A stretch of 64,000 bases of DNA from NCBI RefSeq assembly GCF_900142465.1, contig NZ_FRAX01000010.1, forward strand, positions 1-64,000, given 5' to 3'. Every line of letters starts with the position of its first letter. Positions within the stretch are counted from its first letter, which is position 1. Made by a program: the position numbers and the translations under genes. Positions 39,601-49,314 of this stretch are shown piece by piece. The DNA comes from Fibrobacter sp. UWH6 (GTDB lineage: Bacteria; Fibrobacterota; Fibrobacteria; Fibrobacterales; Fibrobacteraceae). The notes under the pieces were generated by a model that saw only the letters and a list, made by a program, of their open reading frames with translations, ran no database searches and was not told the origin of the DNA.

Positions 39601-42351
39601 TCAAGCCTTTTTGTACATATTCAGCGTTTTCTTTAGCAAGGGAATATCGATGGGTTTGGCCAAGTGACCGTTCATGCCGGCGTCCCTGGACTTTTTCACA
39701 TCTTCTGCAAATGCATTGGCAGACAAGGCCACAATGGGAATTTCAGCACCTTCCTTCTTAGCAGAAAGACGGATTTTCCTGGCAGCCCCAAAACCATCCA
39801 GCACAGGCATCATCAAGTCCATCAGAATCAAGTCCAGTTCGTTCTGGCCAGCGCTTTCAAAGACCCGCACCGCTTCTTCGCCATCTCTAGCGCTAGTCAC
39901 CACCACGCCCATGTCTTCCAGGATTCGGCGGGCAATTTCCAGATTCAAGTCGTTGTCTTCCACCAGCAAGACCTTCATACCATCCAAGGATTCGCTTTCC
40001 GCACCTTCAGTGAGGCAAACACGAGAACTCTGATCAATCTTGAAGGGAATCGTCACAGCAACGTGAGTTCCAACGCCCTCTGTACTACGGACCGTAACCC
40101 GGCCATTCATCTTTTCCACAAGAGCCTTTACAATCGCCATGCCCATACCGGAGCCCCGATAAGTGCTTCGGGCATCATTACGTTCCTGGGTAAAGGGTTC
40201 AAACATCCGTTCAAGGAATTCCTTACTCATACCGATACCCGAATCCACCACGTGGAAACAGTAGGTCAAAACATCCGACGTCTCATTCACGATTTCGGAA
40301 TAACAGTCTACGGAACCGCCCTTCTTGTTAAACTTAATGGCATTGGTCAAAATGTTCAGGAATACCTGACGGACATGGAGCGGGCTCCCCAGCAAATGGG
40401 GACATTTTACACTCAACACACCATCATATCTAACGACAACATCATTTTCATCAGCACGGAGATTGGCAATAGAACGAACTTCACCAAGAACCTGCTGAAG
40501 ATCAAAAGGCTCTTCCAACAGTTGAGTTTCGGCGTCATCGAACTCGCACATATCCAGCACATCGTTCAACAACGACAGCAAATGATTGGCGGCGTTCTTC
40601 GCCTTCCTGCGGCCTTCCGCCCGCTCTTCCGGACTTTGTTCCTTACGGTCAGCAACTTCAAGCAGACCGATAATTCCATTCAAAGGCGTGCGGATATCAT
40701 GAGACATCCTGGCCAGGAACTTGGACTTGACCTCACTTCCCCGCTCCGCTTTTCGGAGGGCGTCCTTCAGCTGAACCTTGTAAGCTTCTTCCCTAGCCAC
40801 TTCTTCGTTAATGGAACGAACAACCCACAGAACATGGGAGCACCGACCATTCTTGTCTCGGCTGATGACAACAAATAGACCTTCACACCAACCCGCATTC
40901 AAGCCCTTAAAATGGATACCAATGGAATCGCGGTTAGCTAGGCGGCCAGCCAAGGTATGAATGTTCGTAAAGTCGAGAAATTCCTGGACCTGTTCCGGCG
41001 CCACTGTCGTCTGGCAAATGGCCCTGAACTTTTCCATGGACTCACCCATCTGACCGATGACGTTGGAAATATAATCTCGGGTAGAATCGCCCAGTTCGCG
41101 GAAATGCCCCGTAGAAAGGTCAATATCATAGGCACAGAAGTAAACCTTGGCCAAGGTACTGATAATGGAATTACGGAAAATTTCGGTATCCAACAATTTG
41201 TCCACGTTCTGGAAACCCGCAATAATCTCGGAGGATCCCTCGATTTTTACGTACTTGTACTGGAAGTAATGAATATCTCCATTTTCAACCACGCGGTAGG
41301 TGCCCACATAGTTTTCATGATCCTTGAGATAGGCAAGGACCTTCTCCTTTTCCATGGCCTTGTACATCATTTCGCGATCTTCCGAGAAGACGCGGTCTTC
41401 AATGTAGTGAGCCCACATGGCATCATACGGGAACTTGTTTTCAGCCCCAAGGTCGCTACGGACCATGAAGCCGTCCTGCTTGACAATGGAGATCTCATCT
41501 TTGTCAGGATTCCAAAGGTACACATAACGGAAATCCTGGCTTAAGGCAGTAACGAAGTTCAGCTGACGTTCCTGAGCCAGTTTCTCTTGAGAAAGATCGA
41601 CTCCATAGATAACCGCTTCCAGATGACCGTTGATGGGGTTCATCATATAGCGGACGCAAGCACGGTACGGAATAATTTCATCGTCCCTAAAACATTCCAT
41701 CTCCCGTTCGAAGGACATCTTGCCCTCTTCATAATGCCGGATCAAGGAAGCACAAGCAAAATCCTTGAGGTAAGCTATACGGGAAACCTGCTTGGGGATA
41801 TTACAGGAAAGTATTTCCACAATGGAATCTACTGTCGTGGATTCCTGACGCGAAGCCATCCAGGACTTAAGCCCCTCGATGTAACCGTCCTCGCCATCTA
41901 CCCCCAGGACCGCATTGCCGGTAAGGTCCAAATGAAAAACCACATCGGTATTGGGAATGGAATCCTTCAGCAATTTAAGCTGATCTACATACTGTTTTTC
42001 GGTACGGCGAATGGAGGTTACGTCAGCAACATACTCAACAAAAACCTTCCGGCCATCCAGCTCCTTGTATTCAACCTTGGTATTATAAACTCGGTCACCA
42101 AGATTCACATCGGCATTTAGGGAATCGCGTTTTTCTGACTTGCGGAGGGGGCAAAAAGGGCACTGACTATCCAGGCCCATCATATACTTGAAACAAGGCA
42201 CCCCCTTATAGGGAGTTTCACCCTGTTTTGCATAATCTCGGGCCATCTTATTCGCATAAACCACAGAAAACGATTCTGCATCGCAAACCAGGACCAGACG
42301 ATCAGAGCCGTCCAAAACAGTTTCAAGCAATTCAACACAGCTAGACATCAA
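39601..42351 (-). CDS. hybrid sensor histidine kinase / response regulator
   Basis: 916 residues and apparently soluble. An N-terminal PAS-like domain (about 1-110, with Cys-rich YKGVPCFKYMMGL and CPFCPL) and further PAS-like regions up to about 540 precede the HisKA H-box SHDIRTPLNGIIGLLEVA. The HATPase has an N-box NAIKFNKKGG, G1 HVVDSGIGMS and G2 YRGSGMGMAIVKAL. The C-terminal receiver (about 795-912) has LLVEDNDLN, the phosphoacceptor in LILMDLMMPVLDG and the conserved Lys in LAKPID. All phosphotransfer residues are present, but no separate output gene is adjacent. Confidence 0.92.
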   Translation of the reverse strand: MMSSCVELLETVLDGSDRLVLVCDAESFSVVYANKMARDYAKQGETPYKGVPCFKYMMGLDSQCPFCPLRKSEKRDSLNADVNLGDRVYNTKVEYKELDGRKVFVEYVADVTSIRRTEKQYVDQLKLLKDSIPNTDVVFHLDLTGNAVLGVDGEDGYIEGLKSWMASRQESTTVDSIVEILSCNIPKQVSRIAYLKDFACASLIRHYEEGKMSFEREMECFRDDEIIPYRACVRYMMNPINGHLEAVIYGVDLSQEKLAQERQLNFVTALSQDFRYVYLWNPDKDEISIVKQDGFMVRSDLGAENKFPYDAMWAHYIEDRVFSEDREMMYKAMEKEKVLAYLKDHENYVGTYRVVENGDIHYFQYKYVKIEGSSEIIAGFQNVDKLLDTEIFRNSIISTLAKVYFCAYDIDLSTGHFRELGDSTRDYISNVIGQMGESMEKFRAICQTTVAPEQVQEFLDFTNIHTLAGRLANRDSIGIHFKGLNAGWCEGLFVVISRDKNGRCSHVLWVVRSINEEVAREEAYKVQLKDALRKAERGSEVKSKFLARMSHDIRTPLNGIIGLLEVADRKEQSPEERAEGRRKAKNAANHLLSLLNDVLDMCEFDDAETQLLEEPFDLQQVLGEVRSIANLRADENDVVVRYDGVLSVKCPHLLGSPLHVRQVFLNILTNAIKFNKKGGSVDCYSEIVNETSDVLTYCFHVVDSGIGMSKEFLERMFEPFTQERNDARSTYRGSGMGMAIVKALVEKMNGRVTVRSTEGVGTHVAVTIPFKIDQSSRVCLTEGAESESLDGMKVLLVEDNDLNLEIARRILEDMGVVVTSARDGEEAVRVFESAGQNELDLILMDLMMPVLDGFGAARKIRLSAKKEGAEIPIVALSANAFAEDVKKSRDAGMNGHLAKPIDIPLLKKTLNMYKKA

Positions 42352-43747: not shown

Positions 43748-44638
43748 TCAGCCGTTGGCCAGAGCTTCCTCCACTTCCTTTCGCAAGGGGATCGAGGGTA
43801 CGGCACCGGGGCGGCTTACTGCAATGGCGGAAGCGCGGGCGCTCACGCGGAGAGCCTGAGCAATGGGCATGCCTTCTGCGAGACCTGCCAGGAAATAGCC
43901 GGTAAAAGTATCGCCTGCAGCGGTAGTATCCACTGCCTTCACGGGGAAGATGGGCTGGAACACCTTTTCTTCGCCGTCGCTATATACCGCGCCGTCCTTG
44001 CCCAAGGTAAGCACAATGCGGGCCTTGGGGAAACGCTTGCGCATTTCAGCCAGAATTTCATCCGGGTCCGTCTTGCCGGTCACCTGATTGCCTTCCACCT
44101 CGTTCAGCAAGAAGATGCTGATCTTGGTCATATCCACCGCATCCAGCTTTTCGTTGAATGGGGACGGATTCAAGGCGATCTGCATTCCCTTTTCGTAAGC
44201 CTTGTCCACGATGTAGGGCAAAAGGTTCACTTCGTTCTGCAGCAACAGAATGTCGCCGGCAGCAAAGTGGCCGAGAACGCCATCCACATATTCCTGAGTC
44301 AGACGCTGGTTTGCACCACCATACAGCAAGATACTGTTCTGGGCGTTCTTGTCAATCTGGATGATGGTATGGCCAGTTTGATCATCGACTTTAGCAATGA
44401 ATTCCCCGTGAACACCATACTCTTTACAAGCGTCCAGGAAGGGCTGACCATCTTCACCAATCATACCGCCCTGATAAACTTCAACGCCAGCCTTAGCAAG
44501 AGCAACAGACTGATTCATACCCTTGCCGCCCAAGTAATGCTTGACGGCTCCGGTAGCTTCAGTTTCGCCCGGCAAGATAATGTGGTCCACGCTATAGACG
44601 TGGTCAAGGTTCATGGATCCGATATTTAGAACTTTCAT
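43748..44638 (-). CDS. rbsK: ribokinase
   Basis: Phosphorylates ribose at O5 for entry to the pentose phosphate pathway. PfkB family motifs are clear: the N-terminal GGKGMNQSVALAKAG (about 38-52), and the C-terminal DTTAAGDTFTGYFLAGL (about 244-260) with the catalytic Asp in AAGD. 296 residues. Last gene of the rbsDACBK operon, 9 bases after the binding protein gene. Confidence 0.96.
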   Translation of the reverse strand: MKVLNIGSMNLDHVYSVDHIILPGETEATGAVKHYLGGKGMNQSVALAKAGVEVYQGGMIGEDGQPFLDACKEYGVHGEFIAKVDDQTGHTIIQIDKNAQNSILLYGGANQRLTQEYVDGVLGHFAAGDILLLQNEVNLLPYIVDKAYEKGMQIALNPSPFNEKLDAVDMTKISIFLLNEVEGNQVTGKTDPDEILAEMRKRFPKARIVLTLGKDGAVYSDGEEKVFQPIFPVKAVDTTAAGDTFTGYFLAGLAEGMPIAQALRVSARASAIAVSRPGAVPSIPLRKEVEEALANG

Positions 44639-44647
44639 GATACCTTC

Positions 44648-46423
44648 CTACTTACCTGCATTTTCAGCAGTGACCAAAGTGACCTTCACCGGGATGTTCT
44701 TTTCTACAACCTTGCCGTTGGCGATGTCCATGGCAGTACGGACAGCAGTTTCGCCAATCAGTGCGGGCTGCTGAGCGATGGTTGCAGCCATACGGCCAGC
44801 CTTAATGGCTTCAACAGCGTCGTCGGTTGCATCAAAGCCAACGACCATCACCTTCTTGCCTGCACCGCTGCTAGCTTCTACGGCACCCAGAGCCATTTCG
44901 TCGTTAGCGGCAAAGACTGCAGCAATCTTGCCATTAGCCTGGAGCATATTTTCCATGACGCTCATGCCTTCGGTACGGTTGAAGTTTGCGGTCTGAGAGG
45001 CAGCCACTTTAAGTTTCTTATCGGCAATGTTGTGGAAACCCTTACCGCGATCGATAGCGGCAGAGGAACCCAGAGTACCCTGAAGTTCAGCGGTAATAAC
45101 GCCTTCACCCAGCTTGTCTACGATGTACTGGGTAGCCAATTCTGCACCGGCAACGTTATCGGATGCAATCTGGCAATCCACTTCCACACCGTTGATGGCG
45201 CGGTCCACGCTAATGACCTTTACACCCTTGGACTTGGCCACCTTTACGGCACCGGTCAGAGCATCGGAATCCACAGCGTTCACGATAAGGATGCTAACGT
45301 TCTTGCTGATCAAATCTTCAATGTCGCTAACCTGCTTGGAAACATTGTCACCAGCGTCAACCACAGTGAGGGCAAGCTTCAATTCAGCAGCAGTCTTCTT
45401 GGCTCCTTCAACCAGAGTAACGAAGAAGGGATTGTTCAGAGTAGAAACAGACAGACCGATGGTACCGCTGAAGCTGGGCTTATCAGCATTCAACTTGTCT
45501 GCATTTTCAGCAGTAACCAAGGTGACCTTCACCGGAATGTTCTTTTCGATGGACTTGCCATTGTTCAGATCCACTGCAGCGCGAACAGCAGTTTCACCAA
45601 TCAGGCCAGGCTGCTGAGCGATGGTTGCAGCCATGCGGCCAGCCTTGATAGCTTCTACAGCATCGTCAGTTGCATCAAAGCCAACCACCATCACCTTCTT
45701 GCCTGCACCGCTGCTAGCTTCAACAGCACCCAGAGCCATTTCGTCATTGGCAGCGAATACGGCAGCAATGTTGCCGTTGGCCTGGAGCATATTTTCCATA
45801 ACGCTCATGCCTTCGGTACGGTTAAAGTTTGCAGTCTGGGATGCGACCACATTCAACTTTGCATCGGCAATGTTGTGGAAACCCTTACCGCGATCAATAG
45901 CAGCGGAAGAACCCATGGTGCCCTGCAGTTCTGCAGTCACAACACCTTCGCCAAGCTTGTCTACGATATATTGGGTTGCAAGTTCAGCACCGGCAACGTT
46001 ATCAGAAGCAATCTGGCAATCCACTTCCACGCCGTTGATGGCACGGTCAACGCTAATGACCTTCACGCCCTTGGACTTGGCTGCCTTTACAGCACCAGTC
46101 AAGGCGTCGGAATCCACAGCGTTCACAATCAGGATGCTGACATTCTTACTGACCAAGTCTTCGATGTCGCTCACCTGCTTAGAAACATTATCACCAGCAT
46201 CCACCACAGTAATGTTGACATTCAGTTCCACGGCAGCCTTCTTGGCGCCTTCCACAAGAGTCACGAAGAAAGGATTGTTCAGAGTAGAAACAGACAAGCC
46301 GATTGCGCCCTTGGAATCAACCTTCTGGGCAGTAGTCTTTTCTTCACCGTCAATGACAATAGAACATGCGGCCATCATCACAGACACAAAAGAAGCGAAA
46401 AGTAAAGCAAAAATTCTTTTCAT
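44648..46423 (-). CDS. rbsB: double ribose-binding lipoprotein: two tandem RbsB modules
   Basis: Periplasmic substrate-binding protein of the ribose ABC importer in an unusual form. A lipoprotein signal peptide ends in the lipobox MAAC (Cys20). Residues 41-310 form one complete type I periplasmic-binding module (IGLSVSTLNNPFF start; SDNVAGAELATQYI; ANDEMALGAVEA), and residues 322-591 form a second complete module. The repeat unit is 281 residues. By hand alignment the two modules differ at about 22 of 270 positions (about 92% identical), mostly near the second helix and the C-terminus. A 12-residue linker joins them. Normal RbsB is about 300 residues. All pocket residues I can align are the same in both, so both should bind the same sugar. 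Confidence 0.95.
   Translation of the reverse strand: MKRIFALLFASFVSVMMAACSIVIDGEEKTTAQKVDSKGAIGLSVSTLNNPFFVTLVEGAKKAAVELNVNITVVDAGDNVSKQVSDIEDLVSKNVSILIVNAVDSDALTGAVKAAKSKGVKVISVDRAINGVEVDCQIASDNVAGAELATQYIVDKLGEGVVTAELQGTMGSSAAIDRGKGFHNIADAKLNVVASQTANFNRTEGMSVMENMLQANGNIAAVFAANDEMALGAVEASSGAGKKVMVVGFDATDDAVEAIKAGRMAATIAQQPGLIGETAVRAAVDLNNGKSIEKNIPVKVTLVTAENADKLNADKPSFSGTIGLSVSTLNNPFFVTLVEGAKKTAAELKLALTVVDAGDNVSKQVSDIEDLISKNVSILIVNAVDSDALTGAVKVAKSKGVKVISVDRAINGVEVDCQIASDNVAGAELATQYIVDKLGEGVITAELQGTLGSSAAIDRGKGFHNIADKKLKVAASQTANFNRTEGMSVMENMLQANGKIAAVFAANDEMALGAVEASSGAGKKVMVVGFDATDDAVEAIKAGRMAATIAQQPALIGETAVRTAMDIANGKVVEKNIPVKVTLVTAENAGK
44650..45460 (-). repeat. RbsB module 2 (coding repeat)
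   Basis: DNA for residues 322-591, an in-frame near-copy of 45493-46303. Differences are scattered, many at third codon positions. Confidence 0.85.
45493..46303 (-). repeat. RbsB module 1 (coding repeat)
   Basis: DNA for residues 41-310, the first copy of the tandem duplication. Confidence 0.85.
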
Positions 46424-46436
46424 GATTCAAATCTCC

Positions 46437-47411
46437 TTATCTCTTACGATCAGCAAGCACAGCAACCAAGATCACTACAGCCTTGATCACGTTCTGATAG
46501 TAGGAAGTGACACCCAAGATGTTCAAACCGTTGTTCAAAACAGCAATGATCAGAACACCTGCAATTGTACCGGTAATTCTTCCGCGGCCGCCATTCATAC
46601 TGGTACCGCCAAGGGCAACAGCAGCGATGGCATCCAGTTCATAACCGCTACCCATAATGGGCTGTGCGGAGTCCACACGGCTAATCATGATCAGACCGGC
46701 CAATGCGCTGAGGAAACCGGAAATACCATAGACACTCATCTTCACGCGATCGATGTTCACGCCAGAAAGTGCGGCGCACTTGGCGTTAGAACCGGTAGCG
46801 TAAAGGCGGCGACCGAAAGTGGTATGCTTCAGCAAGAAATAGAAGATTCCAAAGGAGGCCAACAGGATCAAGATAGGAATAGGAATTTTAATAGCCGGCA
46901 AGAAATCGCAGACCACATTACCCTTACCCAGAGCCTTGAACAAAAGGCTATCACCAGAACTTTCTGCCAGGCGGGAAATGGGCTTACCATCGGTAAGGAT
47001 CATGGCGAGGCCACGATAAGCCGTCATGGTAATAAGGGTTGCAATGAACGGTTGCAAACGACCCTTGGTCACCAAAAGACCACTAATCAAGCCGAGAGCC
47101 ACACCCACCAGCAATGCTACGGGAACCGCAACAATGACAGGTACGCCATGGCCAATCATTTCGGCACAGACAATGGCGCTCAAGGCAAAGGTAGAACCCA
47201 CAGAAAGGTCGATACCTCCACTGAGAATGACACAGGTCATACCGAAGGCAATCAAGCCGTTAAAGGAAGCCTGACGCAACAAGTTCAGGAAGTTACCCGG
47301 CTGGCGGAATTCCGGACTAATGGCACTAATGACCACCACCAGAATAGCTAGCGCAATAAAAACGCCATATTCCGATAAAAAAGCACCTAGATTCTTATTT
47401 TCCTTTTTCAT
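46437..47411 (-). CDS. rbsC: ribose ABC transporter permease
   Basis: RbsC family permease that forms the membrane channel of the importer. Blocks include FNGLIAFGMTCVILSGGIDL, SVGSTFALSA, ITMTAYRGLAMILTDGKPIS and GSGYELDAIAAVALGGTSMN, over 8-10 spans in 324 residues. Its start overlaps the end of rbsA by one base. No fusion or duplication is seen here, unlike the adjacent binding protein. Confidence 0.95.
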   Translation of the reverse strand: MKKENKNLGAFLSEYGVFIALAILVVVISAISPEFRQPGNFLNLLRQASFNGLIAFGMTCVILSGGIDLSVGSTFALSAIVCAEMIGHGVPVIVAVPVALLVGVALGLISGLLVTKGRLQPFIATLITMTAYRGLAMILTDGKPISRLAESSGDSLLFKALGKGNVVCDFLPAIKIPIPILILLASFGIFYFLLKHTTFGRRLYATGSNAKCAALSGVNIDRVKMSVYGISGFLSALAGLIMISRVDSAQPIMGSGYELDAIAAVALGGTSMNGGRGRITGTIAGVLIIAVLNNGLNILGVTSYYQNVIKAVVILVAVLADRKR

Positions 47412-48895
47412 TAGATTTTACCTCCTGTAGCAAGAGTCATAATTTTTTCCTGATCCGCATCGGCACCATTAATAATGCCAGTCACATGTCCTTCGTGAAC
47501 CACCATAATGCGGTCACTCATGCCCAGAACTTCGGGCAATTCAGAGGACACCATGATAACGGCGACGCCCTTGGCGGCCATATCATTGATTACGTTGTAA
47601 ATTTCCTTCTTGGCGCCGATATCCACGCCGCGAGTGGGTTCATCCAGAATGAGAATCTTGGGGTCCGTATAAATCCACTTGGCAAGAACCACCTTCTGCT
47701 GGTTACCACCGCTCAAGTTACCGCACTCATGCTGAGGGCCGAAACAGCGGATGCGGAATTCCTCGATACCGCGCTTCACAAGGCTGGACTGCTTGGCAGC
47801 ATCCAGAACACCCTTCTTGGAAACGATTCCCAAGTTGGTCAGTTCGATGTTTTCAGCAATGCTCTTTTCCAGCAGCAGGCCTTCGGTCTTACGGTCTTCA
47901 GTAATAAAGCCGATACCCGCTTCAATAGCCTGACGCGGATTGCGAATGAATACTTCCTTACCGTTGATAAAGACCTTGCCTGCTACCGTAGGCATATTGC
48001 CGAAAACGGCATGCATAATCTCGGTACGGCCAGCACCCATAAGGCCCGACACGCCAAGCACTTCGCCGGCACGGACATTAAAGCTTACGTCGCGGAACAG
48101 CTTTTCATGAGTAAGGCCTTCCACGCGGAGCACTTCACCGCCGATGGCGTTATCGCGCTTGGGGAAACGTTCACCGATTTCACGGCCGATCATCATCTTC
48201 ACCACGTCATCCATGGTGATATCCTTGATGTACTTGGTATCGATATAGGTACCATCGCGGAGGATGGTGATACGGTCGCACAATTCAAAGATTTCTTCCA
48301 TGCGGTGAGAAACGTAGACGATAGAGACGCCCTTCTTGCGCAGGGAATTGATGACCTCAAACAGGACTTCAGTTTCGCTCTGGGTCAATGCGGCGGTAGG
48401 TTCATCCATAATCAGGACCTTGGCGTCCACCATAAGGGCCTTACAGATTTCCACCATCTGCTGCTGGCCCACAGACAAGTCGCTCATGACCGCATCCACG
48501 GGAATATGGACACCCATGCGGTCCATGATTTCCTGGGCCTTAGCGCGCATGGCCTTCTTGTCGCAGACACCAAAGCGCTTGGTAATTTCGCGACCCATGA
48601 ACAGGTTTTCTTCAACCGTCAGGTCAAACAGAACGTTCAATTCCTGATAAATAAAAACGATACCCGCCTCTTCGGCTTCCTTGGGACTGTGGTAGGTCAC
48701 TTCCTTGCCATCCACAATCACGGTACCGGAATCGCGGGTATACACGCCCGTCAGGATCTTCATCAAGGTCGACTTTCCGGCCCCGTTTTCACCCATCAAG
48801 GCGTGGATTTCACCGTCTTTCAGGAAGAAGCCGGCATCCTTCAATACCTGGTTGCTTCCAAAAGACTTGTTAATGCCTTTCATTTCAACATGCAT
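47411..48895 (-). CDS. rbsA: ribose ABC transporter ATPase
   Basis: Double ATPase of the carbohydrate importer. The N-terminal domain is canonical (Walker A GENGAGKSTLMK, signature LSVGQQQMVEICKAL, Walker B VLIMDEPTAAL). The C-terminal domain has the degenerate P-loop GLMGAGRTEIMHAVFG with a normal signature LSGGNQQKVVLAKWI and Walker B ILILDEPTRGVD, as in E. coli RbsA. 494 residues. Overlaps rbsC by one base. Confidence 0.96.
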   Translation of the reverse strand: MHVEMKGINKSFGSNQVLKDAGFFLKDGEIHALMGENGAGKSTLMKILTGVYTRDSGTVIVDGKEVTYHSPKEAEEAGIVFIYQELNVLFDLTVEENLFMGREITKRFGVCDKKAMRAKAQEIMDRMGVHIPVDAVMSDLSVGQQQMVEICKALMVDAKVLIMDEPTAALTQSETEVLFEVINSLRKKGVSIVYVSHRMEEIFELCDRITILRDGTYIDTKYIKDITMDDVVKMMIGREIGERFPKRDNAIGGEVLRVEGLTHEKLFRDVSFNVRAGEVLGVSGLMGAGRTEIMHAVFGNMPTVAGKVFINGKEVFIRNPRQAIEAGIGFITEDRKTEGLLLEKSIAENIELTNLGIVSKKGVLDAAKQSSLVKRGIEEFRIRCFGPQHECGNLSGGNQQKVVLAKWIYTDPKILILDEPTRGVDIGAKKEIYNVINDMAAKGVAVIMVSSELPEVLGMSDRIMVVHEGHVTGIINGADADQEKIMTLATGGKI

Positions 48896-48915: not shown

Positions 48916-49314
48916 TCAGGCGAAAATGCACCCGGATTGCAAAATTATGTTGGCATAAGGAGTAGTTTCCCCAGTTCTAATTACAGCCTTGCAAGTCTGG
49001 GTGCGTGCCTTCAGTTCCGTATGAGGTACATATTCCACTTCAACACCCTTTAACAGTTGCAGCACCAGACCCTCAACCTGGGGATTCTGGGTCTTGATTT
49101 CTTCGGCCAAGACAATCTTTTCCACCTTCATATCCTTCACCACTTCGGTCAAGGTCTGCATAAAGGTGGGGATTCCGAACGCAAGCGCAAGGTCGATGCG
49201 CTCCGTTTCGTCGGGAATGGGCAGGCCACAGTCGCCAATGCAAATGCAGTCCGTATGGCCCAAATACCCTAAAACTCGGGAAATTTCACTGTTTAAAATT
49301 CCATTTCGCTTCAT
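48916..49314 (-). CDS. rbsD: D-ribose pyranase
   Basis: Interconverts the beta-pyranose and beta-furanose forms of ribose for ribokinase. MKRNGILNSEISRVLGYLGH, CGLPIPDETERIDLALAFG and the C-terminal TGETTPYANIILQSG are typical of RbsD. 132 residues. First gene of rbsDACBK. AAGGGA precedes the ATG. No rbsR gene is in the window. Confidence 0.96.
   Translation of the reverse strand: MKRNGILNSEISRVLGYLGHTDCICIGDCGLPIPDETERIDLALAFGIPTFMQTLTEVVKDMKVEKIVLAEEIKTQNPQVEGLVLQLLKGVEVEYVPHTELKARTQTCKAVIRTGETTPYANIILQSGCIFA

Follow-up and report, generated by a model that had tools for sequence, protein, structure and literature searches.

A two-module ribose-binding lipoprotein in Fibrobacter and its one- to three-module relatives in gut bacteria

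Why do some importers have more than one binding domain? GlnPQ gives no clean answer, since its domains differ in specificity and are fused to the permease. A gene of Fibrobacter sp. UWH6 raises the question for a sugar: what is gained, if anything, when a ribose-binding protein carries the same module twice behind one lipid anchor? The window analyzed here is the whole stretch of 64,000 nucleotides from contig NZ_FRAX01000010.1, and all coordinates without a prefix refer to it.

The gene, rbsB, lies at 44648 to 46423 on the minus strand and encodes 591 amino acids; we identified it from its open reading frame, the alignment of its modules, and its Pfam and NCBIfam matches. It begins with a signal peptide and lipobox (residues 1 to 20, VMMAAC, with the cysteine at position 20; 46364 to 46423), assigned from the sequence, the alignment, and the leaders of its relatives. 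Alignment and Pfam then place an RbsB module at residues 41 to 310 (45494 to 46303), an 11-residue linker at 311 to 321 (45461 to 45493), and a second module at 322 to 591 (44651 to 45460), all on the minus strand. The usual RbsB architecture is a single module per polypeptide, whereas this one has two. The initial annotation had proposed two full modules with a repeat unit of 281 residues and about 92% identity, and a gap-free alignment at an offset of 281 residues bore this out (248 of 270 residues, 91.9%). Its single lipobox was likewise confirmed, as no second signal peptide or lipobox was present in the sequence ahead of module 2. At the DNA level, the modules are 84.7% identical. Among the 270 codons compared, 164 were identical, 84 differed synonymously, and 22 nonsynonymously, giving a dN of 0.046 to 0.049, a dS of 0.68 to 0.79, and a dN/dS of ~0.06. 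Close behind the lipid-anchored cysteine, residues 22 to 27 (46343 to 46360) fit the motif I[TVS]IDGE, which is conserved in nearly all close relatives, single- and multi-module alike, and is absent from Bacillus-type RbsB.

The rbsB gene belongs to a compact minus-strand operon of five genes, rbsD-rbsA-rbsC-rbsB-rbsK, in which it comes fourth. The first gene, rbsD (48916 to 49314), encodes a D-ribose pyranase and scored above the cutoff of its NCBIfam equivalog. It is followed by an rbsA-like ATPase with two ABC domains (47411 to 48895; Pfam and NCBIfam), 77 to 87% identical to the products of close Bacillota operons, and by an rbsC-like permease of the BPD_transp_2 family (46437 to 47411; Pfam and NCBIfam), 67 to 77% identical to those of most close Bacillota operons. 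The last gene (43748 to 44638) encodes an rbsK-like PfkB kinase, a probable ribokinase. For RbsA, RbsC, and RbsK, ribose models were the best NCBIfam matches but fell under their cutoffs. No rbsR-type repressor adjoined the operon among the open reading frames examined; a hybrid histidine kinase with a receiver domain is encoded nearby (39601 to 42351, minus strand). The sole other clear match in the genome, on a different contig, joins a Peripla_BP_4 domain to an AraC-type helix-turn-helix, so the two-module protein appears to be the only RbsB of this genome. The fusion (L002:1267-2940; G000 C2:298827-299582 and flanks) has 558 amino acids with the helix-turn-helix at its C terminus and is possibly a sugar-responsive regulator. 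A similar-looking 542-amino-acid frame (L007) occurs in another Fibrobacter genome, G009.

We next consider whether both modules could bind ribose. The rbsB reading frame has two matches to Pfam Peripla_BP_4 (E 1.2e-114) and exceeds the cutoff of the NCBIfam RbsB equivalog NF007936 over two stretches (556 bits versus 337), a score that is the sum over the two modules. By alignment, each module has S9, N13, F15, F16, N64, D89, R90, S103, and N105 of Escherichia coli RbsB and also R141, F164, N190, F214, D215, and Q235. Eleven of these (S9, N13, F15, F16, N64, S103, N105, F164, N190, F214, and Q235) we take to be ribose-pocket positions (2DRI). Asp89, Arg90, Arg141, and Asp215 are ribose contacts of RbsB (PMC12980723). 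With NF007936 above its cutoff and the pocket complete in both modules, the ribose-binding identity given in the initial annotation very probably holds. The same residues occupy the 15 checked pocket positions in nearly every module of doubles and triples. An AlphaFold model, built on 16 sequences, predicted two separate folds joined by an unstructured linker, with no fixed mutual arrangement (pTM 0.48), and its best PDB matches were RbsB structures. The 11-residue linker would thus be short and flexible, with low confidence at residues 314 to 319.

Close relatives of the gene are rare in Fibrobacter. Only 3 of 37 genomes of the genus carry the gene or a close relative: the one studied here, G025 with a double, and G009 with a single. 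In a scan of GTDB contigs, the closest records were Fibrobacter from horse feces (L008 and L009); the modules of L009 equal those of G025, and the two are probably the same genome. Besides the genome studied here, Fibrobacter counts two doubles and one single. The next relatives were Lachnospiraceae, Oscillospiraceae, and one Phascolarctobacterium, mostly from herbivore guts. By profile domain count, the search for double RbsB in related genomes recovered 19 complete Bacillota doubles (L010-L018, L021, L022, L024-L030, and L034) and 3 complete triples (L019, L020, and L023), numbers that are not frequencies, since the ranking favors long matches. Most of the relatives are metagenome bins. Contig ends cut several further arrays, and singles were found in related and more distant Bacillota. 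Broad sampling of the families of two hosts found close relatives in 6 genomes out of 298 and in 12 out of 397, a few of them multi-module. The D-A-C-B-K gene order was uniform across the close group, doubles and triples included, unlike a Bacillus-like outgroup that has a kinase-family gene upstream. Linkers measured 14 to 28 residues in the Bacillota relatives versus 11 here. We also considered doubling as a general habit of Peripla_BP_4 proteins, which was unsupported: among ~98 matches in 60 Clostridia genomes, a double match per open reading frame (E 1e-30) occurred only in this rbsB family. In the double RbsB of the Phascolarctobacterium bin (L027:4983-6761), a diderm genus of Bacillota, the aligned position lacks the lipobox cysteine, and this protein may be soluble or differently anchored.

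A tree of RbsA plus RbsC, in which row L060 has an artifactually long branch and was left out of interpretation, placed the Fibrobacter sequences as one group (100) within a 15-row group (99) that is otherwise Bacillota, with Phascolarctobacterium as nearest neighbor (92, not starred). This nesting, the RbsA identity, and the rarity of the operon in the genus together support its arrival in Fibrobacter from a Bacillota gut bacterium, and its horizontal acquisition is almost certain. The base composition of the operon showed no striking difference from its surroundings. A complete sugar-uptake operon has thus very probably crossed between phyla in the animal gut and brought a lipoprotein gene of Bacillota origin into a diderm host. 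Cys20 (46361 to 46366 together with residue 21) is followed by Ser in this protein, by Ala in the other Fibrobacter proteins, and in Bacillota mostly by Arg. A lipoprotein with Ser at this +2 position is directed to the outer membrane in E. coli; sorting in Fibrobacter may differ.

How did the modules stay so alike? The initial annotation had suggested dating the duplication by an alignment of the two halves. The alignment was made, and the age does not follow from it, because the high identity reflects purifying selection and gene conversion. A recent local duplication was rejected by the dS between the modules and by the presence of the double in many Bacillota relatives. In a tree of modules, most clustered with others of their host lineage, and clustering by position was limited to close relatives. 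First modules as one clade against later modules were rejected (AU p 4e-6), and with them a single duplication followed by independent divergence. A comparison of two Fibrobacter genomes (L003 and L008) gave 71 sites that track module position, all outside module nucleotides 262 to 503. All 10 species-type sites, at which the two modules within each genome agree and the genomes disagree, are consecutive two-by-two informative sites at module nucleotides 330 to 444. We read this stretch as a clear gene-conversion tract. The array thus evolves in concert and changes size, and intragenic recombination that alters module number while keeping the modules alike would be the best explanation. The family is a clear bacterial example of modules within a single reading frame that evolve in concert. 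A VGNG motif is conserved at the linker end in most Bacillota doubles, which favors one old origin followed by homogenization over repeated duplication. The first third of the G009 single (L004) is most like module 1 and its last 40% most like module 2. Recombination that deleted one module's length in frame would leave such a chimera, although a collapse in draft assembly could mimic it. In one triple (L020:4998-7637), modules 2 and 3 are 97% identical in DNA and share a 470-bp exact repeat, which suggests that the array expanded or underwent conversion recently, or else that its assembly is uncertain.

Taken together, we consider it likely that rbsB encodes a single-anchored series of two nearly identical ribose traps, both functional, which serve a CUT2 importer and dock in turn. 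Each module would bind one ribose and close independently of the other, and the modules would alternate in docking on the one RbsA/RbsC translocator. Such serial traps on one lipoprotein would let one anchor and one translation start supply two, or in relatives three, capture sites near the permease. We infer that a higher local ligand capacity per anchor, as the initial annotation proposed, would be the best-supported function; by analogy with GlnPQ, independent trapping with docking in turn is the most likely mode of action. A broader reading is more tentative, and we hold it at somewhat worse than even chances: gut Bacillota and the recipient Fibrobacter would keep expandable homo-tandem arrays on one lipid anchor, homogenized by conversion, whose length, as a trait that can evolve, tunes ribose capture like a rheostat.

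The arrays might also be kept without any transport gain. The tandem would then be a by-product of unequal crossing-over. Each mRNA would yield more binding units, tethering as such would bring no advantage, and copy number would drift between one and three. Relatives do vary over that range. All multi-module rows of the RbsA plus RbsC tree fall in one 38-row group (97), yet 10 of the 38 are single and ~3 to 4 state changes are needed within it; the chimeric single of G009 points to contraction; and most differences between positions are at sites that are also the most variable among single-module orthologs. Against this, the multi-module state is clustered on the tree (8 changes versus a shuffled mean of 24.9), both modules are under strong purifying selection, and a stronger ribosome site would suffice for ordinary dosage. 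We therefore regard drift or dosage as unlikely, though a serious competitor to serial trapping.

Much less probable is a division of labor in which, as in GlnPQ, the modules would differ in the sugar they bind, in affinity, or in docking. Over the last 15 module residues, the difference between positions, relative to the mean, is 1.93 versus 0.48 to 0.57 between orthologs, and module column 263 is Val in 13 of 13 first modules compared and mostly Ile in the last. However, the two modules have the same pocket residues, conversion has repeatedly erased differences, and the position-specific difference adjoins the linker or the C terminus. Since the excess is confined to those 15 residues beside the linker, specialization seems unlikely. 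Module residues 16 to 30 also diverge and were considered as a sign of specialization; this zone is variable in single-module orthologs as well, and the pocket is unchanged. Finally, an assembly artifact can practically be dismissed, for although the genome is a draft of 50 contigs and contig ends interrupt the array in some relatives, the modules differ by 15% in DNA, the longest exact repeat within rbsB (35 bp) leaves them easily separable by an assembler, and the same architecture and operon recur in many independent assemblies, so that misassembly or collapse is very unlikely.

Returning to two ribose traps in series, we compared the protein with known systems. The initial annotation knew of no described double RbsB. 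The open-access papers that we searched likewise describe no tandem RbsB and no other sugar-binding lipoprotein of CUT2 type in tandem form, yet many such genes lie in public genome bins. Relative to RbsB of E. coli, Thermoanaerobacter, and Bacillus (RbsABC, CUT2), each module has the same pocket and the operon the same rbs gene set; those proteins have one module, whereas there are two here, and up to three in relatives, per anchor. OpuA has one binding domain fused to each permease subunit, and the rbsB tandem, unlike it, is in-line. The two share the feature of more than one substrate-binding domain per translocator (PMC11065425). In GlnPQ of Lactococcus, tandem domains separated by a 14-amino-acid linker act almost independently and compete for docking without cooperativity (PMC8025302). 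The likeness to GlnPQ lies in two substrate-binding domains, a short linker, and, by analogy, probably independent traps that compete for docking. Unlike GlnPQ, in which domains of differing specificity for amino acids are fused to the permease, the rbsB tandem is a separate lipoprotein, beside a permease encoded by its own gene, with the same sugar pocket twice and modules homogenized by conversion. Natural ribose traps of one, two, and three modules with a like permease thus make the effect of tethered copy number measurable alone. Tandem substrate-binding domains were already known from amino-acid importers; the homo-tandem RbsB lipoprotein departs from a familiar sugar importer in an unusual but understandable way.
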